This document shows, one piece after another, positions 1 through 30,544 of a stretch of 64,000 nucleotides of DNA. Every line of letters starts with the position of its first letter. Within the stretch, counting starts at the first letter, position 1. This stretch comes from Pseudovibrio brasiliensis (GTDB lineage: Bacteria; Pseudomonadota; Alphaproteobacteria; Rhizobiales; Stappiaceae). The notes under the pieces were generated by a model. That model was not told where the DNA came from, did not search any database, and saw only the letters and a program-made list of their open reading frames with translations. The DNA lies in assembly GCF_018282095.1 (NCBI RefSeq), contig NZ_CP074126.1, positions 1,622,501 to 1,686,500 on the forward strand, given 5' to 3'. The position numbers and the translations under genes are program-made.

Positions 1-671
1 AACGCATCCTCGGAGCGTGGTGTGCCAAGCTTGTGGCGGAAGAGTTTTGACGGGCGGTGGTTCGCATCTACCTCAACATAAAACAGATACTGGCCGTCTT
101 TGGACCAGACACCACCAGCTCCGGTGTCTGGAATAGTGTCTTCCAGATCTTCGCCAGTTGCCGTATCGCGGAACTTAAGTGTGTAGTACTCAGAGCCTTT
201 GTCGTCATAAGCCCAGGCCAGATACTTGTGGTCGTCGCTGTGGGATGCGCCGCCAAACTTGAAGTAGGCTTTTCCGTCTGCTTCAAGGTCTCCATCAACC
301 AGCACGATAGGATCGCTGCCATCTCGCTTGCTGCGGACGAACTTAGGATGCTGCCCGCCTTCAACAAACTTGGTGGCATAGGCATACTCACCGTCAGGGG
401 AGGGAACAGAGCTGTCGTCTTCCTTGATGCGTCCCTTCATTTCCGCAAACAGGGCCTTTTGCAGCTCTTCAGTATCAGCCATCTCGCTTGTGGTGTAAGC
501 GTTCTCGGCTTCCAGATACGCGCGGATCTCTGGATCAAGTACCTCAGGATCGCGCATAACCTCTTGCCAGTTGTCTGCGCGCAGCCAAGCATAAGGCTCG
601 TTGCGGGTAAAACCGTGATGGCTGGTTTCGTGAGTGCGCATCTGAGCGCGAGGTGGAACTGGTTTATTCAT
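1..671 (-). CDS. ptrB: Oligopeptidase B (prolyl oligopeptidase family S9), 5' part
   Basis: Serine peptidase of the S9A family that cleaves short peptides after basic residues. Reading the complement from the ATG at 671 gives an open frame to the window edge with no stop, about 223 residues. The N-terminus contains HGFTRNEPYAWLRADNWQEV and then a run of beta-propeller-like repeats (SSVPSPDGEYAYATKF, SHSDDHKYLAWAYDD, WSKDGQYLFYVEVD), which is typical of the oligopeptidase B propeller. The catalytic Ser-Asp-His domain lies beyond the window, so activity cannot be judged. It follows msrB on the same strand with a gap of about 300 bases and is probably transcribed separately. I see no clear promoter or RNA in that gap (672-968). 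Confidence 0.85.
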   Translation of the reverse strand, partial: MNKPVPPRAQMRTHETSHHGFTRNEPYAWLRADNWQEVMRDPEVLDPEIRAYLEAENAYTTSEMADTEELQKALFAEMKGRIKEDDSSVPSPDGEYAYATKFVEGGQHPKFVRSKRDGSDPIVLVDGDLEADGKAYFKFGGASHSDDHKYLAWAYDDKGSEYYTLKFRDTATGEDLEDTIPDTGAGGVWSKDGQYLFYVEVDANHRPSKLFRHKLGTPRSEDA

Positions 672-968
672 TATACCTGACTGAGTTTTTGCAAATGATT
701 TTGAGATCTAAGCTCTGTTGGCTCTGCATTTTAAGTGAGAACTGACATAAAGCCAGTTCCCGATTAAAACTTATCCGTCAGAAGATATGTGCCGTATCGA
801 AGGTATAAATTTGAAGGCGAAGCTTTTTACACCGATTATTTTTATGCTCATATGTCTATCGATGTGGAGCTGATAATATTGTTTCAGTGTAAATTCAGTT
901 GTTCTTCCACAGCTTCAAAACGTCGCTCTTTCGCTCCGCGACAACACCTATCTTAGATTTTATCAAAA

Positions 969-1376
969 CTACTCGTCAGGTGTGAATGTCATCGAAGTAC
1001 CATTCATACAGTAGCGAAGTCCTGTTGGTGGTGGACCATCTGGGAAAACGTGTCCGAGATGTCCCCCACAACTTGCGCAGCAGATCTCCGTACGCACCAT
1101 GCCCAAGGTCGTGTCTTTGTGCTCGGTCACAACGTCTGGAGCGACCGCTTCAAAGAAGCTTGGCCAGCCGCAGCCTGCATCAAATTTCGTATCTGATTTG
1201 AATAACTTAGATCCACATGCAGAGCAGCTGTAAGTGCCGGTTTCAAAGGTGTTCCAATAAGGTCCGGTAAACGCGCGTTCAGTTCCTTTTTCGCGTAAGA
1301 TTCGAAACTGTTCCGGGGTCAGTTTTTCCCGCCATTCCGCCTCGGTCATGTCCTTAGGTGATTTTTTGTTAAACAT
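969..1376 (-). CDS. msrB: Peptide-methionine (R)-S-oxide reductase MsrB
   Basis: Cytosolic repair enzyme that reduces the R form of methionine sulfoxide in proteins, using thioredoxin. The 135-residue length is normal for a free-standing MsrB. Zinc-site cysteines are visible as two CxxC pairs (C51/C54 and C100/C103). The nucleophile is C123 in RYCMNG, and C69 in AGCGWPSF is the likely resolving cysteine. The usual motif is RYCxNS, so Gly replaces Ser here, a mild deviation. It is divergent from the Mrp operon across a 258-base gap (1377-1634), which should hold both promoters. No convincing hexamers were identified there. Confidence 0.95.
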
Positions 1377-1634
1377 GATAGAAATCCTTATTCAACGGGC
1401 TCAATGGTAGGGCCATGTTAAGTTTACCAAGACATAAACAAACAGCAGATGTCTAAAAGGCAAGTTACAAATAGGTGAGGTTAGAGTTTATTGAAACCTG
1501 ACAAAACTAGAATGTGATGAACTTGCCCCGCATGGGTGGGCAGATTATGTCTTTGGAGTGGTCGGGGGAGCGTGTTTGGCAAATTCGACTCGGTCTTATA
1601 GGTTCAACCACGAAAATAATTCACGGAGTGCTAC

Positions 1635-3983
1635 ATGCCTTTATTCGGTGTCGAGGCAACGTTCTGGGCGTTATTAGGCCCGTTTGTTGCCGCTGCGCTT
1701 AGTCCCATTCTGGCAAAGACTCTGAAACACAATGCATCATGGCTTCTGGCTATTATCCCTGCATTGGCTTTCTTACAGTTTCTCTCATTCGTGCCGGGTC
1801 TTGCTGAAGGGCAAACCTACAAGGCAAGCTTGGAATGGGTTCCCACCTTTAACGTAAACTTTTCGATTTATCTGGATGGCTTGTCTGTCGTTTTCGCGCT
1901 TCTGATTTCAGGTATCGGCACATTCATTACGTTGTACGCTGGTGGCTACCTGAAAGGGCATGAAAATCTCGGGCAGTTCCTGTCCTACCTGTTCCTGTTT
2001 ATGGGCGCTATGCTTGGCGTTGTCGTGGCCGATAACGTCATCACACTGTTCGTCTATTGGGAATTGACGTCCATCACGTCGTTCTTGCTGATTGGCTTTG
2101 ACCATCTGCGCCGTGCCTCGCGCCGCTCTGCTGTGCAGGCGCTTGTTGTGACTGGCGGCGGTGGTCTCGCCCTGATGGCAGGTCTTATTCTTGCAGGTTA
2201 TCAAGGCGGTAGCTTCGAGATGAGTGAGCTGCTCAACTCAGGAGATGTACTGCGCGAAAGCCCTTATTACACCGCGATCTTTATTTTGGTCGTACTCGGC
2301 GCCTTCACGAAATCTGCTCAGTTCCCGTTCCATTTCTGGCTTCCAAACGCAATGGAAGCGCCAACACCTGTTTCCGCGTACTTGCACTCCGCGACCATGG
2401 TGAAAGCTGGCGTTTACCTGCTTATGCGAATGCATCCGGTTCTGGGAGGAACCGAGCTTTGGATGACAGTTCTGCCAATCTTTGGCGGTATCACATTGCT
2501 GGTTGGTACCATCCTCGGTATTCGCCAGACAGACCTAAAGCTTGTGTTGGCCTACACCACCGTTGCATCCCTTGGTCTTTTGGTGATGCTGACTGGCACG
2601 TCTGATCAAATCGCTATTCAGGGTGCGGTTCTCTACCTGTTTGCGCACTCTCTCTTCAAAGGTTCGCTCTTCATGGTCGTCGGTACGGTAGATCATGAAT
2701 CTGGCACGCGAGACCTGCACAGAGTAGGGGGGCTGTTCTCCGCGATGCCGATCACAGGCACAGCAGCAGTTCTTTCGGCTCTTTCTATGGCTGGTCTGCC
2801 TCCACTCATCGGCTTTGTTGCTAAGGAAGTCCTCTACGACGGCACCTGGTACACCACCAACGGCGGATTATGGACAGCCTTCGCTGTACTGGGCAACGCC
2901 ATGATGTTTGCATTGGCCGCAACTGTTGCCATCAAACCGTTCTTCGGTGCCAAACTGAAAACGCCAAAAGCTGCTCATGAGGGGACAGTTCTGCTGATTG
3001 CCGGTTCAATCACGCTGGCTGTTTTAGGTCTGGTGACGGGTGCCTTTGTGGCTTCTGTAGGTCATCAGCTCTTGTCGCCTATGACCTCAGCAATCCTTGG
3101 CCAGCCGTTTGATAAAGAATTGCATCTGTTCCCAACCTACCTGTCTCCAGCATTGTACCTGTCCGTGGCAACCATCGGTCTGGGCATTATCATCTTCATG
3201 TACATGGACCGCCTCCGTGTCATCGTTGCTGATGTTCTGCGCACCATCGGTTGGGGGCCAGACAAAGGCTTTGATCAGGTTCTGGAAGGGATCATCCGCT
3301 TCGCGACGACGCTGACACAAATGGTTCAGACCGGCAGCATGGTCACCTACATGCGGGCCACGTTCACCGTGATCGCGTTGATGCTGTTTGTGCCAATGAT
3401 CCTCACAGGCAACTGGCCAAAGCTGGAAGGCTTAGGCAGTCTCCACGTTTATGAGTGGTTCATCGCAGCCATAGCCGTCATTGGCGTCTACGCTGTGCTG
3501 ACAGCACGTTATCGGGTAACTGCGATCGTCCTGCTTGGTATTCAGGGATTTGCGGTTGCGTTGATCTATCTGTTGTTTGGCGCGCCAGACCTGTCCTTCA
3601 CCCAGTTCATGGTTGAAACGCTGTCGGTGGTCATCCTCGCACTGGTCATGACACGACTGAACCTCAAGCCAACGGATGCCCGCTCGTCCCGTGGCAAGGC
3701 CTTTGACATCAGCATCGCTGTGCTTTGCGGTGCTGGCATCAGCATGTTGCTCATGTCCATTGTTCAGCTGCCATTTGATCCGACACTCTCTGAGTTCTTC
3801 ACCCAGTACAGCCGTACGATCGCGCATGGCCGCAACATCGTGAACGTCATCCTCGTTGATTTCCGTGGTTTTGATACCATCGGTGAAATCTCCGTTGTGA
3901 TGGTAACTGGCCTTGCGGTGCTTGCACTTATCAGAGTTCGTCCTAAATCAAATGGAAACTCGAATACGGAGAAAAATCGCTAA
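1635..3983 (+). CDS. mrpA: Mrp-type Na+(K+)/H+ antiporter subunit A
   Basis: Largest subunit of the seven-subunit Mrp antiporter in the inner membrane, homologous to the proton-pumping NuoL/NuoM subunits of complex I. It exchanges cytoplasmic Na+ or K+ for protons and supports pH and salt tolerance. The 782 residues are almost wholly hydrophobic. The conserved core is visible ([52 protein letters not shown]), followed by the C-terminal MrpA extension with more helices ([15 protein letters not shown]). The chosen ATG follows GGAG about six bases upstream. In some rhizobia A and B are fused; here they are separate, with the A stop overlapping the B start by one base. First gene of a tightly coupled operon. 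Confidence 0.95.
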
Positions 3984-8015: not shown

Positions 8016-8432
8016 ATGAGCGAGATCCCTGCAGATAACAATTTGATGGAACTGACTGCTGATATCGTGTCAGCCTATGTTGGTAATAACACTGTGGCCT
8101 CCGCTGATTTGCCTGTGCTGATCAACGACGTTTACGTCGCTCTGCAGAAAACCAGCGGTGATCTTTCTGAGCCAGAGCCAGAGCCACTGAAGCCAGCTGT
8201 GCCGGTTAAGAAGTCTGTCACGAACGACTACATCATCTGCCTTGAAGATGGTAAGAAGTTTAAGTCCCTGAAGCGCCACCTGCGCACTCACTACGATATG
8301 ACACCTGAGGAATATCGTGAGAAATGGGGTCTTCCTTCTGACTACCCAATGGTTGCTCCTCATTACGCAGCAGCTCGTTCTGAGCTTGCTAAGAAAATGG
8401 GTCTCGGCCAGCAGCGTAAACGCGCTAAGTAA
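8016..8432 (+). CDS. mucR: MucR/Ros-family zinc-finger transcriptional regulator
   Basis: 138-residue DNA-binding regulator of the Ros/MucR family, which controls exopolysaccharide, motility, virulence or cell-cycle genes in alphaproteobacteria. The N-terminal half is the oligomerisation region ([15 protein letters not shown]). The zinc finger is C75-x2-D78-x9-H88-x3-H92, the MucR variant with Asp replacing the second Cys. It is followed by [20 protein letters not shown], the family's hallmark. The C-terminus is basic (GQQRKRAK). It stands alone between long intergenic regions and has its own terminator. It is the nearest neighbour upstream of the putative GTA activator genes, though whether it regulates them is unknown. 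Confidence 0.94.
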
Positions 8433-8485: not shown

Positions 8486-8888
8486 ATTCCCCTTCCTTCA
8501 TTTTTTATCCCCCCGTTATCGATGAATTCCCCTAAGGGTGCGCGCATTGTGTATATCGCCCTAGATTGGCGAATGCTGCTTTCCGTAAAGGTAAATTTGG
8601 CTCATCGAACACTAGAGCTTAAGTTCTAATTTTACTGTGCTTGCCACAGTTGTGATTTCAAAATACCTGCAAGTCTCAAGAGTTAATTCAAAAATATAAT
8701 TTGATAAGGTTTTAAGCAGCACGATTACTGCGCCTAGGCAGTGCGCTGAACCCACCTGATTTTACCAGTTGTTTAGAAAAATTTATGTTTTGAGGGTGCT
8801 CAGTCTCAATCTTATCCCCCCCGAGTATCGCTAGGGCAACAATCAATTGTTCTTTGACGATAACCAATCAGTTCATTGGAGTAATTAA
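8486..8888. promoter_or_regulatory. Region upstream of the GafY-like gene with two dyads
   Basis: About 400 AT-rich bases with no gene. Two short dyads share the half-site ACTG...CAGT: ACTGTG-cttgc-CACAGT at 8634-8650 and ACTGC-gcctag-GCAGT at 8727-8742, about 90 bases apart. They are candidate operator sites for the gafY-like/gafZ-like transcript. A small hairpin, TCGCC/GGCGA, lies near 8554-8570. A GGAG at 8877-8880 serves as ribosome binding site for the next gene. No secure -35/-10 pair could be assigned. Confidence 0.35.
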
Positions 8889-9332
8889 ATGCCAAGAATT
8901 TCTGAGGGGGAGAAAGACGAAATGTCCAGAAGTCCGCGTTTGGGATCTCCGGTCCATTCCGCCCTGCTGAACAAACCTTTGTCAGCGGTGGACTGGATGG
9001 CAACAGGACGCGTCGCGCTCGCATTTGGATTGAAGCCCGAAGAACTCCATTCCGCATCTCGTGGGTATGCAAAAGCAGCAAGAGCCCGGCAAGTCTCCAT
9101 GTACATCCTCCATGTCTGTATGGGCATGACATTGTCTCAGGCTGCAGCAGCCTTTGGCCGGGATAGAACAACAGCAGCCCACGCCTGCAAGGTTGTTGAG
9201 GATTTGCGTGAGGACCCCAGATTTGACGCTGTGCTCTCCGAAATTGAAGGGCAGCTTTCTGCATCTGTTGCCAGTGCTCGCATGCACCCGGCCATAAACG
9301 CAGGAGGCCCGTCGGATGTCTTTACAGCCTGA
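8889..9332 (+). CDS. DnaA-domain-IV-like helix-turn-helix protein, GafY-like GTA activator
   Basis: 147-residue protein whose middle (about residues 66-104) resembles the DNA-binding domain IV of DnaA: MYILHVCMGMTLSQAAAAFG followed by RDRTTAAHACKVVEDLR, close to the DnaA signature RDHTTVLHA. The rest of DnaA (ATPase) is absent, so it is not a replication initiator. Stand-alone proteins of this type, followed by a second gene, correspond to the two halves of GafA, the direct transcriptional activator of the Rhodobacter gene transfer agent; in Caulobacter the pair is called GafY/GafZ. I infer the same role from domain type, the overlapping partner gene and a complete GTA cluster 10 kb downstream. 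It overlaps the next gene by 17 bases. Confidence 0.75.
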   Translation: MPRISEGEKDEMSRSPRLGSPVHSALLNKPLSAVDWMATGRVALAFGLKPEELHSASRGYAKAARARQVSMYILHVCMGMTLSQAAAAFGRDRTTAAHACKVVEDLREDPRFDAVLSEIEGQLSASVASARMHPAINAGGPSDVFTA

Positions 9333-10050
9333 AACTGAAATCCCTGAGAAAGAGCTGATCAACCTGTGCAGACGGCTCTCTGGGCCAAATAGAAGCTCCC
9401 TAAAGGCGGCCGTTGCCAAACACACGCTAAATCATGCAATTGCCCTGAAACTTGTAAGCAATCAAGAAGACGGACCAAGGCTAACCAAACACGGGAAACA
9501 ATGGCTCAAAAAGGCTCTCAGCAATGGTGGGCTCGAAACGCAACCTGTTCCTGTGCAAGTGGGGCGTGCTGATAGCCCACTCGCCTGGCTTAAAAGCCGA
9601 AAGGACAAAGCAGGGAGCGCCTACATCACAGAGCTGCAATACGAGGCTGGTGAGCGGCTGAGAGAAGATTTCACTTATGCTCAGTATTGGGGAACAGTTA
9701 AGTCCAACTGGCGAAGCGAACGAGCACCCAAATCAGCCTGCAAAATCGATGATGTCAGTGATAGCGTTTATGATGCCAGAGAACGTGTCCAGAAAGCACT
9801 AACAGCGGTAGGGCCGGAGCTATCAGGCATTCTCATGGATGTCTGTTGCTTTCTCAAAGCCCTCAAACACGTCGAAAGCGAACGGCAATGGCCACAACGT
9901 ACAGCAAAGGTGGTGCTGGGATTGGCTCTGGACCGACTATCTAAGCACTATGGCTCCTCACGCCAGCGCGCGGTCGGTCCTGAAACCTCACAAATGGTAA
10001 GTTGGACAGCTCTTAGTTCAGAGCAAGCGCAGCAGACGCATCATCCTTGA
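9316..10050 (+). CDS. DUF6456-type protein, GafZ-like GTA activator/antiterminator candidate
   Basis: 244-residue soluble protein translated from an ATG eight bases after AGGAGG, overlapping the GafY-like gene by 17 bases. The N-terminal third is a helical region reminiscent of a winged-helix or SinR-like domain. The C-terminal half (SPLAWLKSRKDKAG, AGERLREDFTYAQYWGTV, GLALDRLSKHYG) matches what I know as the DUF6456 family, found in this position in Rhizobiales. In Caulobacter the equivalent GafZ is reported to bind RNA polymerase and prevent termination within the GTA cluster. The assignment is by context and remembered family features, not by alignment. Its last 38 bases overlap the 3' end of sufE on the other strand. 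Confidence 0.68.
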   Translation: MSLQPETEIPEKELINLCRRLSGPNRSSLKAAVAKHTLNHAIALKLVSNQEDGPRLTKHGKQWLKKALSNGGLETQPVPVQVGRADSPLAWLKSRKDKAGSAYITELQYEAGERLREDFTYAQYWGTVKSNWRSERAPKSACKIDDVSDSVYDARERVQKALTAVGPELSGILMDVCCFLKALKHVESERQWPQRTAKVVLGLALDRLSKHYGSSRQRAVGPETSQMVSWTALSSEQAQQTHHP

Positions 10051-10444
10051 TGCGCTGGACCATGGAGCTCAGTCCATTCGAGCGCTGTGGTGTAAGGTGC
10101 TCTTTGAGGCCGATCTTGCTGAAGACATTCTCAATGTCGGTCTCAAGGATCTCTTTTGCAGGTACACCGGAGTATTGCGCAAGAACGATGGCAACCAAAC
10201 CACGAACGATATGCGCATCGCTATCGCCTTTGTAAAACAGGATCGGGCCGTTATCTCCGTCTTCCTGAATGCGCTTGGAAAGCCACACCTGAGAGACACA
10301 ACCATGAACGCGGTTTTCCTCACTGCGTTCATCATCGCTCAATGGCTCAAGTTCACGGCCAAGCTCGATGACATAGCGATAGCGATCTTCCCAGTCTTCG
10401 AGGAATTCAAAGCCTTCTAGAATCTCAGCAATCGCAGTGGTCAT
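10013..10444 (-). CDS. sufE: Cysteine desulfuration protein SufE
   Basis: 143-residue SufE-family protein that accepts persulfide sulfur from SufS and passes it to the SufB scaffold for iron-sulfur cluster assembly. The acceptor cysteine is C49 in VHGCVSQVW, the family signature. The order SufE then DUF5330 on one strand is familiar from Rhizobiales. The gene ends inside the 3' end of the convergent GafZ-like gene (38-base overlap), so the two transcripts are antisense there. No other suf genes are in the window. Confidence 0.94.
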   Translation of the reverse strand: MTTAIAEILEGFEFLEDWEDRYRYVIELGRELEPLSDDERSEENRVHGCVSQVWLSKRIQEDGDNGPILFYKGDSDAHIVRGLVAIVLAQYSGVPAKEILETDIENVFSKIGLKEHLTPQRSNGLSSMVQRIKDDASAALALN

Positions 10445-18870: not shown

Positions 18871-19350
18871 ATGGTATCCGTAAACTCTGAGAGTCACCGC
18901 CCTTTCTGGCAGACCAAAACCCTTGATGAGATGACCCATGAAGAGTGGGAAAGCCTCTGTGATGGATGTGGACGCTGCTGCCTGAACAAGCTGGAAGATT
19001 GGGACACTGGCGCAATCTACTGGACAAACGTCGCGTGCACTCTGCTTGATGGAACCACATGTAGGTGCAAAAACTATGAACGGCGCTTCGACACCGTGCC
19101 TGACTGCGTTCAGCTTTCGCCGGAAACTGTAAGAACTTTGAAATGGTTACCGCCAACATGCGCGTATCGTCTAATCCGTGAGGGCAGGGACCTGTACTGG
19201 TGGCATCCGCTTGTCTCCCAAGATCCGCAGAGCGTGCATGACGCCGGAATCTCCGTAAAAGACAAAACCATCAGCGAAGATGGAATGGAGCCAGAAGAGT
19301 TCGAAAATTATCTCGTCGACTGGCCTGATGAGGAATATACCAGAGACTGA
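18871..19350 (+). CDS. UPF0260 (YcgN-like) cysteine-cluster protein
   Basis: 159-residue soluble protein of the UPF0260/YkgJ type. The eight or so cysteines include the motif [14 protein letters not shown] (about 30-43), then [17 protein letters not shown] and DCVQLSP, probably a metal or Fe-S binding set. Function unknown. It is divergent from the PBP operon and has its own terminator at 19432. Confidence 0.88.
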
Positions 19351-19431: not shown

Positions 19432-19462
19432 AGCGCAGGGCCACATTGCTCTGCGCTTTTTT
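19432..19462 (+). terminator. Rho-independent terminator of the YcgN-like gene
   Basis: AGCGCAGGGC / GCTCTGCGCT forms a 10-base stem with one G-T pair and a 6-base loop, ending in a run of six T, 80 bases after the stop codon. Confidence 0.85.
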
Positions 19463-19580
19463 AAGTGTCCCATCAAAGCCTTACAGCTTTCTTTATTCAA
19501 AGTTGAACAAATTCGATCCTAACGTGAAACGGGGATAAGTGTCCATGCCTCTTTGGGTGGCTTCTCTTAGGAATATAATC

Positions 19581-19609
19581 TTGACAGCGCGCCGCTGTTT
19601 TGATAGTGT
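19581..19609 (+). promoter_or_regulatory. Candidate GTA promoter
   Basis: A consensus -35 box TTGACA (19581-19586) is followed after 17 bases by TAGTGT (19604-19609), a weak -10 with three of six consensus bases. A good -35 with a poor -10 fits a promoter that needs an activator. It is 140 bases upstream of the first GTA gene and reads through the leader hairpin. Confidence 0.45.
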
Positions 19610-19692
19610 TTTGGCATGCTAGAGAAAGTGTGAGTGACGCCGACAAGCCCTCTTACAGCTTTCTGATCGCACGACATTTTAAAGTTTCGACC

Positions 19693-19725
19693 AGCTGCTC
19701 CTTGTTTCAACGGGCGGCTTTTTTT
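19693..19725 (+). terminator. Intrinsic terminator in the GTA leader
   Basis: AGCTGCTC (19693-19700) pairs with GGGCGGCT (19712-19719; two G-T pairs), with a further TTG/CAA stem at the top. Seven T follow at 19719-19725. It lies between the promoter-like site and the ribosome binding site of the first GTA gene, and no gene ends just upstream. A terminator in such a leader would keep the cluster off unless RNA polymerase is modified, which suits a GafZ-type antiterminator. Confidence 0.7.
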
Positions 19726-19750: not shown

Positions 19751-20263
19751 ATGGCAGAGGAACAGGAACCCCAAGAGGACGAAGAGCAGGCAGCGCGGCT
19801 ACGTGTGCCTTTAGAGGTTTGGCAGGTGGTCCGCCGCATGGTGGAAGAGGAGGCGATTTCCATTGCTGACATTGCCCGCAAGACCGGCCTGCCGAGCAGC
19901 ACCATCACCACCAGGATCAGACGGGAAGGGTGGTTGCGCAAGTGGGAGTTGGCTCAGCAACTGGCGAGTTCCGGGACGGAAGAGCGCAAACGCCTGATCG
20001 CCCGTCTCTATGCTGCCTTTGAGAAACAGGTGAGCGCGCTGGAAGCCAAACTGAAAAAGCTCAGCGGCGATCCGCAATCGGCAGCCGGTGAGATGGACGC
20101 CACCGCTAAGGCAATCACCAGCCTCGCCAAAACGCTGGATATGCTGATTGATTTGCAAGAGGCCCATGGCGCGGACAACACAGAAGAGGTGAGTGATGAC
20201 CAGATGCGACAACAGCTTTCGCAGCGCATTGCAAGCTTGTGTGGCGCAGGGCAAACTTCATGA
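19751..20263 (+). CDS. GTA small terminase-like protein (gp1)
   Basis: 170 residues from the ATG at 19751, four bases after AGGAGG; an upstream ATG at 19724 has no ribosome binding site and lies in the leader hairpin's T-run. The protein begins acidic. A helix-turn-helix (ISIADIARKTGLPSSTITTR, about residues 36-56) is followed by coiled-coil-like helices (KRLIARLYAAFEKQVSALEAKL). This matches RcGTA gp1, which acts as an unusual small terminase lacking cos/pac specificity. It overlaps the large terminase gene by 71 bases. Confidence 0.82.
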   Translation: MAEEQEPQEDEEQAARLRVPLEVWQVVRRMVEEEAISIADIARKTGLPSSTITTRIRREGWLRKWELAQQLASSGTEERKRLIARLYAAFEKQVSALEAKLKKLSGDPQSAAGEMDATAKAITSLAKTLDMLIDLQEAHGADNTEEVSDDQMRQQLSQRIASLCGAGQTS

Positions 20264-21527
20264 CTTCATCGCCTCGCTGAGCAAAGATGAACTGAGCTTT
20301 CTTCAATATAACTGGCAGGTCTTTGCCCACGACCATCAGCGCCCACCAGAAGGCCACTGGGCCACATGGTTGCTCATGGGAGGGCGCGGCGCAGGCAAAA
20401 CCAGAGCAGGGGCAGAATGGGTGCGAGGCAAAACAGCGGGCGAGCCATGGGCAGGTCCAGCAGCGGGTAACATCGCACTTGTGGGGCAAACCTATGCGGA
20501 TGTCCGGGAGGTGATGATCGAAGGTATTTCCGGTCTGCTAGCCGTGCACCCACCCAACCAAAAACCTCAGTGGAACCCATCACGCCGCCGTCTGGAGTGG
20601 CCTAATGGCGCAATCGCAAGGGCCTTCTCCTCTGAGGATCCAGAGGCCTTGCGCGGTCCTCAGTTTGATGCAGCCTGGTGTGATGAAGCGGGCAAGTGGA
20701 GCAATGCAACGGAGACGTTCGATATGCTCCAGTTCGGCCTGCGCCTTGGCACGCAGCCACAGCAACTGGTGACCACAACGCCCAAATCTACCCCGCTGCT
20801 GAAAACGCTGCTACAGGATCAGCGAGTGGTGGTGACGAAAGCTGGCACCAGATCCAACGCAGCCTTTCTGGCCGAAGCCTTCCTGCAACAAATGGCAGAG
20901 CGCTACGGCGGCACCCGGCTCGGCAGGCAGGAGCTCGATGGTGAGCTGATCGAAGATCGCGAAGACGCCTTGTTCGCCCGCAAATGGTTCGAGATGAACC
21001 GCACGCGTCACATACCAGAGCTAAAGCGCATCGTGGTTGCTATCGACCCGCCCGCCACATCTGGCAAGTCGGCAGACGCCTGCGGCATCATCGCGGCAGG
21101 CATAACGGAAGCAGCTGAGCTGTTCGTCCTGCGAGACAGAACCGCTCAGGGCCTGCGCCCCGCTGCATGGGCAGATCAGGCCATCCGGATCTATCATCAG
21201 TTGGAGGCTGATTGCCTGCTGGCGGAGGTCAATCAGGGCGGGGAAATGGTGCGTGAGGTGATTGAAAGCGTGGACGCCAGCGTGCCTGTCAAATCCGTCC
21301 ACGCCACACGAAGCAAACGCCGCAGAGCGGAACCCGTTGCACTGCTATATGAGCAGGGCCGCGTTCACCACTGCGGTGTGTTCCCGGAACTGGAAGATGA
21401 ACTGGCAGATTTCGGTGCAGCTGGTTTGAGCAACGGAAAATCACCGGACAGGCTCGATGCACTGGTCTGGGCGATCACAGAACTGAATCGCCGCCCCACA
21501 GGCAAACCACGCCTGCGCAATCTTTAA
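20193..21527 (+). CDS. GTA/phage large terminase subunit (gp2)
   Basis: 444-residue DNA packaging motor that cuts and pumps DNA into the prohead. Walker A is GGRGAGKT (63-70), Walker B FDAAWCDE (158-165), and the coupling motif TTTPKSTPLL follows. The RNase H-like nuclease domain begins with VVAIDPPATSGKSADACG (D285) and ends with the acidic SPDRLDALVWA. The whole family layout is present, so the enzyme looks functional. Start at the ATGATG inside gp1. Confidence 0.94.
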   Translation: MMTRCDNSFRSALQACVAQGKLHDFIASLSKDELSFLQYNWQVFAHDHQRPPEGHWATWLLMGGRGAGKTRAGAEWVRGKTAGEPWAGPAAGNIALVGQTYADVREVMIEGISGLLAVHPPNQKPQWNPSRRRLEWPNGAIARAFSSEDPEALRGPQFDAAWCDEAGKWSNATETFDMLQFGLRLGTQPQQLVTTTPKSTPLLKTLLQDQRVVVTKAGTRSNAAFLAEAFLQQMAERYGGTRLGRQELDGELIEDREDALFARKWFEMNRTRHIPELKRIVVAIDPPATSGKSADACGIIAAGITEAAELFVLRDRTAQGLRPAAWADQAIRIYHQLEADCLLAEVNQGGEMVREVIESVDASVPVKSVHATRSKRRRAEPVALLYEQGRVHHCGVFPELEDELADFGAAGLSNGKSPDRLDALVWAITELNRRPTGKPRLRNL

Positions 21528-21746
21528 AAACATCAGTAGCATCAAAGGTTAGCTCGCAAACTTGAATCTGTTTGTGAGGAATAAACCTGTGCGTGCTGTT
21601 GAAATGCGGGTGCCGATTTTCGGGACAAAGATCCGCGAGACCAAAAGCTAAAGCAGTTTCTCAAGACAGGCATAACGGCAAACGGCTTTTGCGATCTGAT
21701 TACTTGAATCAAAACATTAAGTTAGAGCAAAAAGGACTCTGATCTC

Positions 21747-22925
21747 ATGGGGTTACGCAGACTTCTTGAATCAGTTTTTTCACCAGCAGCGGAGCAGAAA
21801 GCCTCCCGGGCAAAATCCGTGGCCTTCATGCGCTTTGGTGAAGGGGCCGTCTGGACCCCGCGCAACTATGAATCACTTATAAATCAAGGATATTTACGAA
21901 ATACTATCGCCTACAGATGTGTCCGCCTCATTTCAGAAAGTGCGGCGAACATCTCCGTGACCATCAAGGTCGGTGATGAGGAGCTGGAAACGCACCCTTT
22001 AATGGACCTGCTGAACCAGCCCACACCCACCCAAACACGGCGCTCGTTCCTGGAGGAACTCTACGGCTTCCTGCTGGTCTCCGGCAATGCCTATGTGGAC
22101 GCTGTGTCGCTGGAGGGCGAGCCGCGTGAGCTGCACGCTCTGCGGCCAGATCGCATGAAGGTGTTAGTGGATGATGCAGGCTGGGTAGAGGCCTATGAGT
22201 ATCAGGTGGCCGGACGCAAAGTGGAGCTGCGCAAGGGGACGGGTGATAAGATAGAGCCCGTCCTGCACATCAAGCTTTTCAACCCGCTCAACGATCACTA
22301 CGGCTTTGCGCCGATTGAGGCGGCCCAGGTTGCGCTCGATATCCATAATGCCGCCGGTGACTGGAACAAATCCCTGCTGGACAATGCGGCTTGCCCAACA
22401 GGCGCGCTGGTCTATGGCGCAGGCGATGCCATGAACATGACCGACGATCAGTTCCACCGCCTTAAGGAAGAGCTGGAAAGCTCCTATCAGGGTGCCCGCA
22501 ATGCAGGGCGACCCATGCTGCTGGAAGGTGGGTTGGATTGGAAGCAGATGGGCATGTCGCCAAAGGACATGGACTTCATTGAGCTGAAAAACGTGGCCGC
22601 CCGAGAGATCGCGCTGGCCTTCGGCGTACCGCCCATGCTGCTTGGCATTCCGGGAGACAACACCTATGCCAACTATCAGGAGGCCAATCGCGCTTTCTGG
22701 CGGCTGACTGTGGTGCCACTCGCCGCCCGTGTTCTCTCTGAACTCTCCAACTGGCTTTCTGGTGCTTACAGCGAGCAGATTGCTCTGGAGTTGGATCTGG
22801 ATGCGGTTGAAGCGTTGGCACAGGAACGCAAAGCATTGTGGGATCGCATCACCACCGCTGACTTCCTCAACCGTGATGAAAAACGCATGGCCGTGGGCTA
22901 CGGCGCGGAGGGGGCGGATGAGTGA
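21747..22925 (+). CDS. GTA portal protein, HK97 family (gp3)
   Basis: 392 residues, the dodecameric portal at the capsid vertex through which DNA is packaged. Family motifs are visible: TIAYRCVRLISESAANI near the N-terminus, LYGFLLVSGNAYV, HIKLFNPLNDHYGFAPIEAA and the C-terminal AFGVPPMLLGIPGDNTYANY. Full length. It is separated from gp2 by 219 bases with no gene, containing a weak GCGG...CCGATTTTCGGG...CCGC dyad at about 21605-21637. The ATG overlaps no neighbour. The stop overlaps the next small gene by eight bases. Confidence 0.94.
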   Translation: MGLRRLLESVFSPAAEQKASRAKSVAFMRFGEGAVWTPRNYESLINQGYLRNTIAYRCVRLISESAANISVTIKVGDEELETHPLMDLLNQPTPTQTRRSFLEELYGFLLVSGNAYVDAVSLEGEPRELHALRPDRMKVLVDDAGWVEAYEYQVAGRKVELRKGTGDKIEPVLHIKLFNPLNDHYGFAPIEAAQVALDIHNAAGDWNKSLLDNAACPTGALVYGAGDAMNMTDDQFHRLKEELESSYQGARNAGRPMLLEGGLDWKQMGMSPKDMDFIELKNVAAREIALAFGVPPMLLGIPGDNTYANYQEANRAFWRLTVVPLAARVLSELSNWLSGAYSEQIALELDLDAVEALAQERKALWDRITTADFLNRDEKRMAVGYGAEGADE

Positions 22926-23106
22926 GTTGATGACAGCACTCGCCGCAAAAGGAGATCTTGCCCATGTGGTGCTTGGTGCCTGGGCAGGCACGTCCACCTC
23001 CATGCTTCTATGGGCACTGAAACAAATCATCCGGTTCAATCGCCGCTTTGAGGAGTTCATGTGCGAACTGGAAAAACTCAACCAACTGCTGCGCATGGAT
23101 GCCTGA
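22918..23106 (+). CDS. Small GTA protein between portal and protease (gp3.5-like)
   Basis: 62 residues starting at the ATG in ATGAGTGA, overlapping the portal stop. It contains one hydrophobic stretch (AHVVLGAWAGTSTSMLLWAL, about 15-34) and an amphipathic, charged C-terminus. RcGTA has a small gene, gp3.5, at the same place. Position, size and a likely transmembrane or holin-like helix are the only evidence; function is unknown. Confidence 0.7.
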   Translation: MSELMTALAAKGDLAHVVLGAWAGTSTSMLLWALKQIIRFNRRFEEFMCELEKLNQLLRMDA

Positions 23107-23157
23107 AACATACGCACAATAAATATTGAGCTTACGTAAACGGTTTGAGGGAAGCTC

Positions 23158-23340
23158 TTGACTCAAAATTACAAAGCAGCCGCAGCACCGAAGGAGCGAA
23201 AGCAACAGCTCACCGAGCGGTGCACAGAACCGCCAGCACAGACCTTTGCCACTTTCACACAGGCCCTTGCCGGTGCGCTGGCAGAACGTCGGGCTGCGAA
23301 GGCTGAAAGCATCAACAGGACCAATAAAAACAACAACTGA
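23158..23340 (+). CDS. Possible 60-residue protein with TTG start
   Basis: Open frame from a TTG preceded by TTGAGGGAAG at ribosome-binding distance, in the same direction as the GTA genes. It is hydrophilic and rich in Ala, Lys, Arg and Gln with no motif. It ends ten bases before a palindromic repeat element. It could be an accessory GTA gene or chance. Confidence 0.35.
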   Translation: MTQNYKAAAAPKERKQQLTERCTEPPAQTFATFTQALAGALAERRAAKAESINRTNKNNN

Positions 23341-23350
23341 TTTCGCTCAT

Positions 23351-23396
23351 AGCGTATTCCCGAAAAGTGGTTCCGGTTTTCGGACGAGAATACGCG
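23351..23396. repeat. 46-bp palindromic intergenic element inside the GTA cluster
   Basis: AGCGTATTCCCGAAAAGTGG followed by TTCCGGTTTTCGGACGAGAA and TACGC: ends AGCGTATTC/GAATACGC and the inner CCGAAAA/TTTTCGG pair, giving an imperfect hairpin. Nearly identical to 40887-40932. Such elements are common between rhizobial genes. Here it separates the portal block from the protease-capsid block. Confidence 0.8.
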
Positions 23397-23465
23397 TAGA
23401 AAAAAGATTTAGAGCTTGGTGCGTGAATGTAATGAACGCGAGCAACTCTAAAGGAGGCAAGCAAT

Positions 23466-23891
23466 TTGAACACAGATCACCCCATCGCCATTGAGGGTTA
23501 TGCCAGCCGATTTGAGCTGAGCGATCAGGGCGGGGATGTTATGCGCAAAGGTGCATTTCACACCACCTTGCAAAAACAAAAGCTCTCGGATGTGAAAATG
23601 CTCTGGCAGCATGACCCGGCGCACCCCATCGGCAAGTGGCTGCATATTCAGGAAGACAGCATCGGCCTCTTTGTCAAAGGGCTGCTCTATCCAGGTATCG
23701 CACAAGGGCGGCAGGCCATCGCCATGGTGCAAGCGGGCATTCTGGATGGGTTGTCCATTGGCTTCAAAACCCGCCGCGCCCAGCGCAACAGCAAAACCGG
23801 CAGGCGGGATGTGCTGGCAGTTGATCTCTGGGAGATCTCGCTGGTCACGTTCCCTCTGCTGCCATCTGCCCGACTGACCGTCGTCTCCTGA
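23466..23891 (+). CDS. GTA prohead protease, HK97 family (gp4)
   Basis: 141 residues, serine protease (peptidase U35) that trims the capsid protein during prohead maturation. Likely catalytic residues are H49 (LWQHDPAHPIG), S97 (GLSIGF) and E123 (LWEISLVTFP). The start is a TTG eight bases after a strong AAGGAGG, and no ATG fits better: the first internal Met is at residue 26, inside the conserved domain. Immediately upstream of the capsid gene, as in HK97-like phages. Confidence 0.92.
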   Translation: MNTDHPIAIEGYASRFELSDQGGDVMRKGAFHTTLQKQKLSDVKMLWQHDPAHPIGKWLHIQEDSIGLFVKGLLYPGIAQGRQAIAMVQAGILDGLSIGFKTRRAQRNSKTGRRDVLAVDLWEISLVTFPLLPSARLTVVS

Positions 23892-23975
23892 CGATCCTTT
23901 TAGTCTGAACCAATGAGCTGTGGTGTCCGTTTGGCTCCGCAGTTTTTTATTATCCAATTCAAGGAAAATAATCCT

Positions 23976-25307
23976 ATGAAAAGCACATGCAATCCAGCAT
24001 TGGAAACCAAAGACTTCGCCAGAGAAGCGGCAGGAAAATCAGCTGAGCCCATAATTTCCGGCTCCGCAACCGGCCATTTTGCTTCTGCTATGGAGCGTTC
24101 TGACAGCTTCGATCAGCTCAATCACGCTTATTCTGAGTACACCCAGACAAATGATATGCGTCTGGCCGAGTTGGAACAGAAGTCCGGTTCAGACGTCCTG
24201 CTGGATGAAAAGCTGGCCCGACTGGACGAGATCATCGATGGCCAGCTGCGCCATCTCAACGAACTTCAGCTTAAGTCCCAGCGCCTGCCACGCTCTGCAC
24301 CGGATGCCGGTAGCAGTCCTACGGCGGAGGTGGAACACAAGTCCGCCTTTGAAACCTATATGCGCGAGGGGCAGGAGAGCCGTCTGAAAACGCTGGAACA
24401 GAAAGCCATGTCCTCTGGCACAGCCGCTGACGGCGGGTATCTAGTGCCGGAGCAACTGGAAACAGACATCCTGCGCCGCATCACGGCCCTGTCGCCCATC
24501 CGCTCAATTGCCTCCAACCGCAAAATCTCCGGCTCTTCCTATCGCCGCCCCATCGTCTCCGCCAATCCAGATGCAGACTGGGAAGGCGAAACCGATGCCC
24601 GCAGTACGCCAACCAACGCGATGAAGTTTGAGATGCGGGAAGTGAAGATCTTCGAGCTGTCGGCACTACCAGCGGTCACCCAGACCCTCTTGGATGATGC
24701 CGCCGTCAACATCGGGGAAATTCTGGCAGAAGAGGTGGAAACCGTCTTTGCGGAAAAAGAGTCTGCTGCTTTCTTCAACGGCAATGGCACCAGTCAACCG
24801 CAAGGCCTGCTCAAAGGCACCATCCATGGCTCACTGGATGATACCGGCCTTTCCATTGGCTCTATCAAGACCGGTGAGGCAGGTGCATTTCCATCTACCA
24901 ACGGTGGAGACTTGCTGATCTCGCTGATCTATGGCGTCAAAACCGCCATCCGCCGCAACGCCCGTTTCCTCTTCAACCGCAGAACGCAGGCCGCCATCCG
25001 CAAGCTGAAAGACGGGCAGGGCAATTACCTCTGGCAACCGCCAGCATCCGCCGGTGCTGACCCAAGCCTCATGGGCTTTCCGGTCACAGAGGCAGAACAC
25101 ATGCCGGATATGACAGCAGGCTCTGACCCTTATGCCATCGCGTTTGGTGACTTCCACCGCGGCTACATGGTGGTTGACCGTGTCGGCATCTCCGTACTGC
25201 GAGACCCATACACCAGTAAGCCGAATGTGCTGTTTTACATCACCAAACGCGTTGGCGGCGGCATCATGGATTTTGATGCCTACAAACTGCTGAACTTCAG
25301 CGCCTAA
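23976..25307 (+). CDS. GTA major capsid protein, HK97 fold (gp5)
   Basis: 443 residues from the ATG at 23976, preceded by AAGGA; an upstream ATG at 23913 adds 21 residues and has no ribosome binding site. The N-terminal part (about residues 60-100) is a charged coiled coil, DMRLAELEQKSGSDVLLDEK, matching the delta-domain removed by the protease. The rest is the HK97 shell domain (TAADGGYLVPEQLETDILRR, FLFNRRTQAAIRKLKDGQGN, VDRVGISVLRDPYTSKPNVL). Full length and intact. Confidence 0.95.
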   Translation: MKSTCNPALETKDFAREAAGKSAEPIISGSATGHFASAMERSDSFDQLNHAYSEYTQTNDMRLAELEQKSGSDVLLDEKLARLDEIIDGQLRHLNELQLKSQRLPRSAPDAGSSPTAEVEHKSAFETYMREGQESRLKTLEQKAMSSGTAADGGYLVPEQLETDILRRITALSPIRSIASNRKISGSSYRRPIVSANPDADWEGETDARSTPTNAMKFEMREVKIFELSALPAVTQTLLDDAAVNIGEILAEEVETVFAEKESAAFFNGNGTSQPQGLLKGTIHGSLDDTGLSIGSIKTGEAGAFPSTNGGDLLISLIYGVKTAIRRNARFLFNRRTQAAIRKLKDGQGNYLWQPPASAGADPSLMGFPVTEAEHMPDMTAGSDPYAIAFGDFHRGYMVVDRVGISVLRDPYTSKPNVLFYITKRVGGGIMDFDAYKLLNFSA

Positions 25308-25339
25308 CCAGCGTTCATCACAAAAGAGGAGGGGCCGCC

Positions 25340-25912
25340 GTGACAGCTATACTTACAGTGCCACCGGCTCTGGAGCCGGTTTCGCTCGCCCAGGCGCATG
25401 CGCAGCTCAGGGTGTCACATACTCACGAGGACGATCTGATCGGGCGTCTAATCAAAGCCGCGCGGGAACAGGTGGAGACACTCACACGGCGGGCTCTCAT
25501 AGAACAGGAATGGCGGTTGCTGCTGGATGACTTGCCGCCAGACCGCCTAATCCGCCTGCCAGTCGCCCCGGTCGCGCAAATCCTGCAGGTCTACACCTAT
25601 GACAAGGATGGCAACCAACATCAGGTGCCTGCCTCGGATTATCAGGTGGACCTGGCCGGTAACCCCGCCCGCCTGCGCTTCAAGGCAGGAGCGGTCGGAC
25701 CACTTCGCGACCTCAACGGCATCGAGATCGACTTCAAAGCGGGTTACGGATCAGCGGCAACCTCCGTACCCGCTGGCCTGCAAACCGCGATCCTGATGCT
25801 GGTAGGCTTCTGGTATGAGCGCCGATCCATGTTGGAAGAAACCCGCCTCACAGGCCTCATGCCCCACGGTTTTGAGGCCGCTCTATCTCCCTACAAGGTC
25901 CTCAGAATATGA
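25340..25912 (+). CDS. GTA head-tail adaptor (gp6)
   Basis: 190 residues from a GTG that follows GAGGAGG. It belongs to the phage head-tail connector group (gp6/phiE125 gp8-like): PVSLAQAHAQLRVSHTHEDD and LIKAAREQVETLTRRALIEQ at the N-terminus, and the family's AGYGSAATSVPAGLQTAILM near the C-terminus. It forms a ring under the portal. It overlaps the next gene by four bases. Confidence 0.88.
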   Translation: MTAILTVPPALEPVSLAQAHAQLRVSHTHEDDLIGRLIKAAREQVETLTRRALIEQEWRLLLDDLPPDRLIRLPVAPVAQILQVYTYDKDGNQHQVPASDYQVDLAGNPARLRFKAGAVGPLRDLNGIEIDFKAGYGSAATSVPAGLQTAILMLVGFWYERRSMLEETRLTGLMPHGFEAALSPYKVLRI

Positions 25913-26247
25913 GAGCGGCAGGCACACTCAACGAACCCCTGCTATTGCTCCGCCCTGAAACCACCCATGGCACAGATGGCTCCGTCACCCGAAGCTATCA
26001 GCAAACTGTCATGGTCTGGGGGCAGGTGGAGGGTTCCGCCAGCTCAGAGGCCACAACAGCAGGCCGCATTGCCAGTTCCTACCCGCTCACCGTCACCCTT
26101 CGCCGCCGTACAGATGTGGCGGAGGGTTGGCGGATCGAGCGGGACGGGCAGAGCCTGAGGGTCAAAGCGATCCTCCCAAACTCAGAGCAAGATGCCTTCA
26201 TGCAGATCCTCTGTGAGCAGGAGGAGGGCGATGATGGGGGAACTTGA
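25909..26247 (+). CDS. GTA head closure / stopper protein (gp7)
   Basis: 112 residues of the phage head-closure (SPP1 gp16-like) family: GTDGSVTRSYQQTVMVWGQV and the beta-rich DVAEGWRIERDGQSLRVKAI. It seals the portal and joins head to tail. It overlaps gp6 by four bases and gp8 by 17. Confidence 0.85.
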   Translation: MRAAGTLNEPLLLLRPETTHGTDGSVTRSYQQTVMVWGQVEGSASSEATTAGRIASSYPLTVTLRRRTDVAEGWRIERDGQSLRVKAILPNSEQDAFMQILCEQEEGDDGGT

Positions 26248-26641
26248 GTTCCGCAAAGCCCTGTTTCAGGCCATTCACGCCAAGGCATCGCTCAAACCTT
26301 ATCTGGGGGACCCACTGCGTATGTTCGACGGCGTGCCACGAGGTGCAACGTTGCCCTACGCCGCGCTGGAAGCCGTCACCACGCAGCTGCTGACGGGACA
26401 TCTGGAAGAGGGCGGCAGGCTCACGGGTTCCATCGGCGTCTACTCCCGCCATGCGGACCGTGCCCAGACCCAGGAAATCCTGCAGATCTTCAATGACCTG
26501 CTGGAAACGGGGATCACACCAGCAGCGGGCACTGACGCCGCAGGCCTGACCATGACCGAAACCAGCTGCCGCCGCCTGAGTGATGGCCGCACATGGTACG
26601 GACGCATCAAGTTCTCCATCCTGCTGCAGCAGTCTGATTAA
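26231..26641 (+). CDS. GTA tail terminator, DUF3168 (gp8)
   Basis: 136 residues from the ATGATG at 26231, just after GAGGAGG; a longer frame from 26192 is inside gp7. DUF3168 features are visible (FRKALFQAIHAKASLKPYLG, LEAVTTQLLTGHLEEGGRLT, IGVYSRHADRAQTQEILQIF). The protein caps the tail tube and mediates joining to the head. Confidence 0.88.
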   Translation: MMGELEFRKALFQAIHAKASLKPYLGDPLRMFDGVPRGATLPYAALEAVTTQLLTGHLEEGGRLTGSIGVYSRHADRAQTQEILQIFNDLLETGITPAAGTDAAGLTMTETSCRRLSDGRTWYGRIKFSILLQQSD

Positions 26642-26665
26642 AGCCAATACCCGAAAGGAAAACAG

Positions 26666-27082
26666 ATGGTCGCACAGGCCGGAAAAGACCTGCTGTTGAA
26701 ACTGGATACAGCAGGCACAGGCACCTTTGAAAGTGTGGCGGGCCTGCGCTCGCGGCGCCTTGCACTCAACGCAAACCCAATCGATATCACCGATGCAGAA
26801 AGCACAGGCCGTTGGCGGGAGCTGCTGGCAGGCGCCTCCACCCGCCATGCGTCGCTCTCTGGCAGCGGCTTGTTTCGCGACAAAGCCTCAGCAGAAAAAG
26901 TCCGCACCGCCTTCTTCGCCGGAGAGCTGCGGGACTGGCAGATCATTCTACCCGGCTTCGGCACGCTGGAAGGCCCGTTCCACCTCTCCGCACTGGAGTA
27001 TTCCGGCGACTACCGCTCCGAAGTCACCTTCGAGATCTCGCTGGAATCTGCCGGTGAGCTCACCTTCACACCGCTGACCTGA
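26666..27082 (+). CDS. GTA major tail tube protein (gp9)
   Basis: 138 residues of the TP901-1-like major tail family: AGKDLLLKLDTAGTGTFESV at the N-terminus, then LRSRRLALNANPIDITDAES and GEFT-like beta strands. It polymerises into the tail tube. It starts 24 bases after gp8, with GAAAGGA as ribosome binding site. Confidence 0.9.
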   Translation: MVAQAGKDLLLKLDTAGTGTFESVAGLRSRRLALNANPIDITDAESTGRWRELLAGASTRHASLSGSGLFRDKASAEKVRTAFFAGELRDWQIILPGFGTLEGPFHLSALEYSGDYRSEVTFEISLESAGELTFTPLT

Positions 27083-27090
27083 GGAACACC

Positions 27091-27459
27091 ATGTCATCGA
27101 AAACCTATAACCGGGGCGCCAACCGCAGACGTGGTGAAATCCTCGCGGAACTTGGCGGCCAAAAGCACATTCTGGTGCTCACACTCGGCGCATTGGCGGA
27201 GCTGGAAGACACGCTCAACTGCACCTCCCTGCAACAGCTAACAGAGCGCTTTTCAGAAGGGCATTTGAGCGCTGCCGACATCATCAAAGTGCTGGGGGCA
27301 GGTTTGCGCGGTGGTGGGCTGATTATTGAGAATGAGGAAGTCGCCGAACTCTCCCACGAAGGCGGCGTGGCAGCCCTTGCCAGGCTGGCAGGTGAGCTGC
27401 TGGTAGCCACGTTCTCTCCGCAGCAACCGCATACCCCGTCACAGCGCGGTCAGTCGTGA
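27091..27459 (+). CDS. GTA tail assembly chaperone (gp10)
   Basis: 122 residues; GTA/phage gene-transfer-agent family tail chaperone: NRRRGEILAELGGQKHILVL, LGALAELEDTLNCTSLQQLT and ADIIKVLGAGLRGGG. It assists assembly of the tail around the tape measure. Its last 27 codons and stop lie in the first copy of a 104-bp tandem duplication. The encoded protein is unaffected. Confidence 0.88.
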   Translation: MSSKTYNRGANRRRGEILAELGGQKHILVLTLGALAELEDTLNCTSLQQLTERFSEGHLSAADIIKVLGAGLRGGGLIIENEEVAELSHEGGVAALARLAGELLVATFSPQQPHTPSQRGQS

Positions 27460-27585
27460 AACAGAGCCGTATCACCACCACTGCCAGGCTGGCAGGTGAG
27501 CTGCTGGTAGCCACGTTCTCTCCGCAGCAACCGCATACCCCGTCACAGCGCGGTCAGTCGTGAAACAGAGCCGTATCACCACCAC
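27378..27585. repeat. Perfect 104-bp tandem duplication at the gp10/gp10.1 junction
   Basis: Bases 27378-27481 and 27482-27585 are identical at every position I compared, and identity stops on either side. Each copy contains the end of gp10, the GTGA overlap, and the first codons of gp10.1. Because 104 is not a multiple of three, the copies are read in different frames, yet both flanking genes stay whole. Confidence 0.95.
27456..27563 (+). other. Chimeric 35-codon frame created by the duplication
   Basis: The GTG of the first repeat copy opens a frame that reads the first nine codons of gp10.1 (VKQSRITTT), crosses the repeat junction into the gp10 frame (ARLAGELLVATFSPQQ) and stops at the TGA of the second copy. 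It overlaps gp10 upstream and gp10.1 downstream by GTGA, so reinitiation from gp10 to gp10.1 could pass through it. It is probably a by-product with no function of its own. Confidence 0.5.
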
Positions 27586-28319: not shown

Positions 28320-28390
28320 CGTCGGCATTGAAGAGGAGGGACTCAAGGACCGACGTTGTTTTGCTACCGGACGGTGGTAGCAAACTTTTT
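28319..28390 (+). terminator. Hairpin plus intrinsic terminator between gp11 and gp12
   Basis: First ACGTCGG (28319-28325) pairs with CCGACGT (28350-28356). Then TTTGCTACC (28360-28368) pairs perfectly with GGTAGCAAA (28376-28384) over a 7-base loop, followed by C and five T. The second hairpin is a good intrinsic terminator inside the GTA operon, before genes needed for a complete particle. Readthrough must therefore be controlled. Confidence 0.75.
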
Positions 28391-29174: not shown

Positions 29175-29195
29175 CTCAATCTCACGAGTATCTTC

Positions 29196-30526: not shown

Positions 30527-30544
30527 TCTGGAAAGGACAAAGCC

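Follow-up and report, generated by a model that had tools for sequence, protein, structure and literature searches.

A cell that produces gene transfer agents (GTAs) dies in doing so; it is therefore the switch controlling production that decides when they are made. What is this switch in Pseudovibrio, and through which DNA sites would it act on the particle genes? The stretch analysed here (the window) comprises 64,000 nucleotides of contig NZ_CP074126.1 of Pseudovibrio brasiliensis and contains two overlapping genes at 8889–10050 with a GTA cluster downstream. We consider it highly probable that these genes are the gafYZ operon of the Pseudovibrio GTA and that they drive the GTA operon through a promoter, a dyad and a leader terminator in the manner proposed below. 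The gene pair is of a known type; the new part is a conserved control site before the particle genes, which suggests how the switch works.

The two proteins resemble the halves of GafA

gafY (8889–9332, plus strand) encodes a putative stand-alone activator of 147 residues and gafZ (9316–10050, plus strand), which follows directly with an overlap of 17 nt, a predicted processive anti-terminator or co-activator of 244 residues. A first-pass annotation, made from the DNA letters, had proposed a DnaA-domain-IV-like protein and a DUF6456 protein, and both assignments are borne out by Pfam: PF08299 (Bac_DnaA_C) matches residues 42–102 of GafY (E 2.7e-13), with no further domain above cut-off in that protein, and PF20057 (DUF6456) matches residues 81–213 of GafZ (E 6.1e-45). 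The signature motif claimed for the first protein, FGRDRTTAAHAC, is present and aligns with the domain IV signature of Escherichia coli DnaA (1j1v, E 8.6e-6), the reading head GRDRTTAAHAC of GafY being aligned to GRDHTTVLHAC of the E. coli protein.

The same annotation had taken the pair for the two halves of GafA, that is, GafY plus GafZ, and had suggested a profile comparison with GafA, GafY and GafZ. We ran hhalign against three GafA-type proteins of the same class (L075–L077); in two of these a single ORF also includes the N-terminal HTH. The DUF6456 protein is similar to the GafA C-terminus (probability 99.9, E 4.5e-31) and GafY to the N-terminus (probability 94.4, E 8.7e-8). These alignments support the identification of the pair, at the level of sequence, as GafY and GafZ, the split halves of GafA. 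The first-pass annotation would have been refuted had the second protein shown no profile similarity to GafZ or the GafA C-terminus, and this outcome did not occur. The 6.03-Mb genome contains one GafY match at E ≤ 0.001 and one DUF6456 match, and among 14 control genomes the DUF6456 model matches only Caulobacter vibrioides. GafZ is present at full length in eight other Pseudovibrio records with 52–93% identity, the nearest named relative being Pseudovibrio denitrificans JCM 12308 (93%). Structure prediction, which had also been suggested, was run for GafZ and gave a weak model (pLDDT 68.9); a PDB search with it returned a best match at E 0.67 and none that is significant, sigma-factor chains appearing among the non-significant matches only. 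This result counts against the preferred explanation.

Split activators of this kind have been described. In Hyphomicrobiales, gafA is split: the DnaA-like gene leads, and the pair is flanked by mucR on its upstream side and by sufE on its downstream side (Sherlock and Fogg 2022, PMC9638019). The order mucR–gafY–gafZ–sufE is the same here. mucR, a mucR/ros-type regulator gene (8016–8432, plus strand; PF05443, E 3e-53), is the neighbour that the first-pass annotation had noted, and its place is conserved, since each of the 15 genus relatives fetched (L055–L069) has it ahead of gafY; sufE (10013–10444, minus strand; PF02657, E 2.1e-46), a published synteny marker (PMC9638019), is the conserved downstream neighbour. 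Of 759 GafZ homologs, 494 have an adjacent GafY, and the split form is commoner than the fused one (Gozzi 2022). The finding of the gene pair is thus of a known kind. Rhodobacter capsulatus GafA, which matches DUF6456 proteins (PMC9638019), has the same two domains in one fused protein, whereas two separate ORFs encode them here (PMC6363796, PMC9638019); it binds the omega subunit of RNA polymerase, and its gene has lipA and gua1 as neighbours in place of mucR and sufE (PMC6363796, PMC9638019). Sections 10 and 18 and further passages of PMC9638019 state neither how far the pair lies from the GTA cluster in this order nor a promoter, a dyad or a leader terminator.

A phage origin of gafZ was considered and rejected. 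The sole phage match, MW462191.1 (L248), is a freshwater contig deposited as a bacteriophage; its gene order (transcriptional regulator, DNA-binding protein, hypothetical protein with the DUF6456-type match, sulfur acceptor protein) indicates that it is probably alphaproteobacterial chromosomal DNA labelled as phage.

The pair is linked to an RcGTA-type cluster

The cluster at 19751–34429 is of the RcGTA type, with its head–tail genes complete and in the order TerS–TerL–portal–protease–capsid–tail–megatron. The first gene, encoding the small terminase (TerS, gp1-like; 19751–20263, plus strand, ATG at 19751), was assigned from its position and sequence and has a weak match to phrog_1206 (E 0.0056). 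The genes for TerL, portal, protease, capsid, connectors, tail tube, tape measure, gp12–gp14 and megatron follow on the same strand (20193–34429), and the megatron product scores 1564.5 bits against a cut-off of 800. A complete GTA was reported in Pseudovibrio FO-BEG1 in 2013 (PMC3806328). The reading frame at 18871–19350 was rejected as a terminase candidate for TerS, since it encodes a CxxCxxCC protein (PF03692). This protein, conserved beside the GTA promoter, matches a PHROG of unknown function (E 4.6e-53), so some phage records include it.

Co-occurrence was examined in 121 genomes, our own and 120 relatives, with DUF6456 in 97 and the megatron model in 96. Both are found in 93 genomes and neither in 21, so that they are present or absent together in 114 of 121; four genomes have DUF6456 without megatron (G081, G104, G109, G110) and three the reverse (G079, G096, G102). 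The association has a Fisher p of 1.3e-16, a value that ignores the relatedness of the genomes. The 21 genomes that lack both include 16 from one genus (g2) and five from five families. Genus g2, which belongs to the same family (G016, G032, G035, G038 and 12 more), has apparently lost the whole GTA system.

In 58 of the 90 genomes entered, gafZ and the megatron gene share a contig; they lie within 70 kb of each other in 56 of these 58 (median 30.8 kb), and in 49 of the 56 linked genomes gafZ is upstream of megatron on the same strand, as in the window. Much of the block mucR–sufE–DUF1491–penicillin-binding-protein gene–CxxCxxCC gene recurs in Ancylobacter and Bosea. Since linkage and gene block both recur across the order, the nearness of gafYZ to the GTA genes is probably ancestral. 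The first-pass annotation had singled out the nearness to a complete GTA cluster: it is real, gafY lying 10.9 kb upstream, but with linkage so widespread in the order it is nothing special. The accompanying idea of a heritable on-switch is weak for the same reason and because the whole unit, from gafY to the end of megatron, spans 25.5 kb, as against the 8.3 to about 9 kb packaged by the Caulobacter GTA.

At the level of sequence, then, the split halves of GafA, the published gene order, the gene overlap and the co-occurrence with an RcGTA-type cluster are all in place.

A second megatron-type gene lies elsewhere in the genome (G000:C1:3109866–3113780; L050, L051), with gp12–gp14 relatives at 37–47% identity. 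In the 40 kb fetched around it, similarity to TerL, portal and capsid was not found at E 1e-3; the locus has neither the GTA promoter nor a TTATCCCC box, and no gafZ of its own. It is probably a prophage with a GTA-like tail.

A conserved promoter precedes the GTA genes

An alignment of nine Pseudovibrio leaders shows near-invariant blocks upstream of TerS. In the window, on the plus strand, these comprise TAGGAATATAATC (19568–19580), a degraded form of an R box, that is, of a RogA-like operator (GGAA-N4-TTCC, the motif published for Caulobacter RogA; PMC9632790), which abuts the −35 element TTGACA (19581–19586); the dyad CAGCGCGCCGCTG (19585–19597); the −10 element TAGTGT (19604–19609), 17 bp after the −35; and the conserved initial transcribed stretch CATGCTAGAGAAAGTGTG (19615–19632). 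The last of these was considered as a leader-peptide gene and rejected, as it has no conserved frame. The dyad, a predicted GafZ-binding element, occupies the place between −35 and −10 at which Caulobacter GafZ binds the palindrome GCGCCCG-CTGGCGC (PMC11150451). In Caulobacter crescentus the activator is likewise encoded by two genes, and activation and anti-termination by GafYZ have been published (PMC9632790, PMC11150451). A GafY would further be expected to bind the gafYZ and GTA promoters and sigma70 regions 3–4, and a GafZ to have its palindrome at the GTA promoter alone, a restriction that our analysis covers through the full promoter pattern.

Alignments across the order reveal a common plan of R box, TTGACA, dyad CAGCGnnnCGCTG, TAGGGT and then CATG.TCGAAGAA.TGCG. 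A promoter with the dyad at the position of the GafZ-binding palindrome was recognised in 37 of 51 upstream regions, in 13 of 21 genera. Because these 37 were chosen partly on TTGACA, AGGAA and TA at a fixed distance, the spacing of 17 bp does not count as independent evidence. Among the 51 GTA regions, 18 have an exact AGGA-N6-TCCT box (shuffle mean 0.44).

We then scanned all 121 whole genomes with a pattern built from these alignments. With at most one mismatch it gives 45 matches in 42 genomes, and the reversed pattern gives none; 16 of the 42 matching genomes had no part in building the pattern, and 7 of the 16 matches in such genomes lie upstream of an entered megatron gene. Overall, 34 of the 45 matches have a megatron gene 7.9–21.5 kb downstream of them on their own strand. 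Of the other 11, three are on the gafZ contig, 11–20 kb from gafZ (G074, G085, G114), two elsewhere in G091, one about 70 kb from megatron in G059, and five on contigs without an entered megatron. None of the 16 genomes of the genus Pseudovibrio matches within one mismatch, since the distance from AGGA to TTGACA is 8 there, not 9; the Pseudovibrio version of the full promoter has a single match within the window, that at TTGACA 19581–19586.

In 29 distinct 13-mers, the third pair of the dyad is G-C in 13 and C-G in 4, and in the other 12 it does not pair. On average 4.21 of 5 positions pair, compared with 4.03 when the halves are re-dealt; of 2000 re-dealings, 33 come up to the observed value in a test that ignores relatedness. 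This is modest support for a dyad kept through paired change; the 12 sites broken at the third pair count against the preferred explanation. The −35 is the consensus TTGACA, in contrast to the degenerate −35 rescued by Caulobacter GafY (PMC11150451), and GafY may therefore be less needed in Pseudovibrio. Searches of the open-access literature, covering listings and text passages, brought up no account of such a promoter, dyad or leader terminator for Hyphomicrobiales.

The GTA leader contains a terminator-like hairpin

Between promoter and TerS, at 19693–19725 on the plus strand, the leader folds into an intrinsic-terminator-like hairpin (−12.5 kcal/mol) followed by seven T residues. It was seen by folding and is absent from the list of a simple terminator scanner. 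For other genomes, leader ends were set at 430 nt before TerL instead of at an annotated TerS. A hairpin with a T-run occurs in all 13 genus leaders tested (members G001, G004 and G013 gave no tested leader), although the deeper members have stems of different sequence. Taking all 35 leaders together, 23 have one (shuffles 2.4); the 12 leaders without a detected terminator count against the preferred explanation. As no reading frame is conserved in Pseudovibrio in the stretch from promoter to hairpin, every GTA transcript from that promoter must pass the hairpin. Leader terminators are what GafZ anti-termination would need, and we infer that GafZ acts on the leader hairpin here. In Caulobacter, by comparison, GafZ anti-terminates at a terminator after the first gene, while the hairpin here is in the leader before it (PMC11150451). 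The predicted logic resembles that of processive anti-terminators of the lambda Q type, with a factor loaded between −35 and −10 and a terminator early in the transcript (PMC11150451); the likeness to GafZ that we draw is one of logic.

Sites upstream of gafY

The region before gafY contains the box CTTATCCCC (8811–8819, plus strand), one of two in the window, where 0.25 are expected. Its core, TTATCC, is also the core of the DnaA box. The genus alignment further shows two inverted repeats of putative function: AACAATCAATTGTT (8838–8851), a possible operator that is altered in some members, and CCAATCAGTTCATTGG (8864–8879), just before the gafY start, which also fits the strict IHF consensus AATCAGTTCATTG. 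Four further XRE-type repressors control Caulobacter gafYZ (PMC10688885), so these repeats could have other owners.

The shorter form TTATCCCC is found on either strand in 45 of 60 gafY-upstream regions and 18 of 25 genera (shuffle mean 0.98). When the 50 genomes that have both regions are compared, no other 8-mer is as common upstream of gafY: 42 of them carry it, including 28 of the 35 that lie outside the genus. Many relatives have, after this box, a palindrome of the type TATAGGAATATAAACCTATA, the core of which fits the RogA motif GGAA-N4-TTCC. Of the 60 gafY regions, 42 contain AGGA-N6-TCCT if up to one base may differ (shuffle mean 7.7) and 6 contain it exactly (mean 0.33).

The second CTTATCCCC box of the window, on the minus strand (19531–19539; GGGGATAAG on the plus strand), lies upstream of the GTA promoter, and 11 of 13 genus GTA promoters are preceded by such a box, 50 or 138 bp ahead of the −35. 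Outside the genus TTATCC is found upstream of the GTA promoter in 1 of 23 cases (chance 1.7), and in G017, G056 and G061 the TTATCCCC box is downstream of it. As a universal GafY site, TTATCCCC is unsupported at GTA promoters outside the genus. The box recurs at gafY throughout the order but precedes the GTA promoter in this genus alone, which makes its assignment to GafY uncertain and counts against the preferred explanation.

IHF is required in Caulobacter. Strict IHF matches occur in 6 of 60 gafY regions (chance 1.6, largest shuffle 6), a small excess made up entirely of one genus-conserved site 23 nt before gafY. At the GTA promoter no strict site was found here, and 1 of 36 GTA promoters has one (chance 0.5); near 19450 a looser match was noted, by visual inspection alone.

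In many relatives a RogA-like operator is present at both the gafY and the GTA promoter, and the two promoters are therefore probably kept silent in those genomes by a RogA-like repressor. In our genome, as in Pseudovibrio generally, the GGAA-N4-TTCC operator at the gafYZ promoter is found only in degraded form; since it is degraded at the GTA promoter too, the repressor link is less certain in this genome. Caulobacter RogA is enriched only at gafYZ and CCNA_02002 (PMC9632790), whereas the RogA-like box stands at both gafY and GTA promoters in the relatives studied here. A search for a LexA-like repressor of about 213 residues gave a candidate RogA-type repressor, a 214-residue ORF with HTH-like and S24-like parts (L247, 1411–2055, minus strand; G000 C1, about 1370687), unlinked to the window.

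A model for GTA activation and its alternatives

In the mechanism that we propose, GafY would use its DnaA-like reading head to recruit RNA polymerase at the GTA promoter (19581–19609), and GafZ would load onto the polymerase via the dyad (19585–19597) between −35 and −10 and carry it past the leader terminator (19693–19725) and along the 15-kb operon. A polymerase lacking GafZ would end its transcripts ahead of the first GTA gene. Both the gafY and the GTA promoter would, in many relatives, be held down by a RogA-like repressor. Extended to all Hyphomicrobiales, the GTA would be an operon of the late-phage type, in which one promoter interleaves a RogA-like operator, the −35, a GafZ-loading dyad and the −10, the leader terminator is passed only by GafZ-modified polymerase, the repressor acts directly on both the activator gene and the GTA promoter, and the promoter is specific enough for GTA operons to be found by DNA pattern alone. 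We regard this wider reading as evenly balanced between right and wrong. If it is true, the direct action of the repressor on activator gene and GTA promoter is a wiring unlike that of Caulobacter. The promoter would serve as a DNA signature for GTA operons in the order, and with a defined promoter, dyad and leader terminator the GafYZ mechanism can be tested outside Caulobacter with simple reporters.

The pair might instead be a GafYZ relic, or might now serve the host in some other way, and have ceased to drive this GTA. The second megatron locus, lacking its own gafZ and a matching promoter, shows that not every megatron gene goes with the switch; yet the joint presence or absence of GafZ and megatron in nearly all genomes, the full-length GafZ of the other Pseudovibrio records and the conservation of the promoter elements in the genus make this very improbable. 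A nearer competitor concerns the leader hairpin, which could be a mere insulator against upstream read-through and not a target of GafZ. A separate terminator-like hairpin after the upstream gene (19432–19457) means that such insulation is used at the locus, and the Caulobacter terminator lies after the first gene and not in the leader. Against this, the hairpin at 19693–19725 is downstream of a conserved promoter with no conserved gene between them, in every genus leader tested, and we think the insulator role unlikely.

A further alternative concerns the box before gafY. It could be read by DnaA or by another regulator, which would tie gafYZ expression to replication or to another signal, with GafY using a different site at the GTA promoter. 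The order-wide presence of the box at gafY and its restriction to the genus at GTA promoters favour such a reader, as does the core that it shares with the DnaA box. On the other side, Pseudovibrio has the box before both gafY and the GTA genes, as the sole two CTTATCCCC copies in 64 kb, GafY carries a DnaA-type reading head, and Caulobacter GafY binds its own promoter (PMC11150451). We therefore hold a reader other than GafY to be a real possibility, though somewhat less than even. The preferred reading remains that GafY and GafZ together drive the GTA operon from the promoter at 19581–19609.

Further observations

In a genome of the same class and another order (L083, G245), positions 177–3390 contain a divergent mucR, gafZ, a TerS-like ORF recognised by eye and TerL; the activator thus stands at the head of the GTA/phage-like operon itself. 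In G087, three copies of the GTA promoter pattern occur in one region on the megatron strand (C13:347478, 354757 and 361083).

A genome-wide GafY regulon drawn from CTTATCCCC was rejected: the box has 61 sites and its reversed control 21, yet a dispersed repeat accounts for 22 of those 61, which were assigned to it by a regular expression on its downstream hairpin. This non-coding repeat (L105–L155, G000; for example L115 at 1501, L120 at 1501 and L155 at 1552) gave no Rfam match up to E 0.1 in the five loci tried. It consists of AAAAACTTATCCCCCT, about 20 bases, a CATACTAAT-like stretch and a GCCCACG..CGGGC hairpin.
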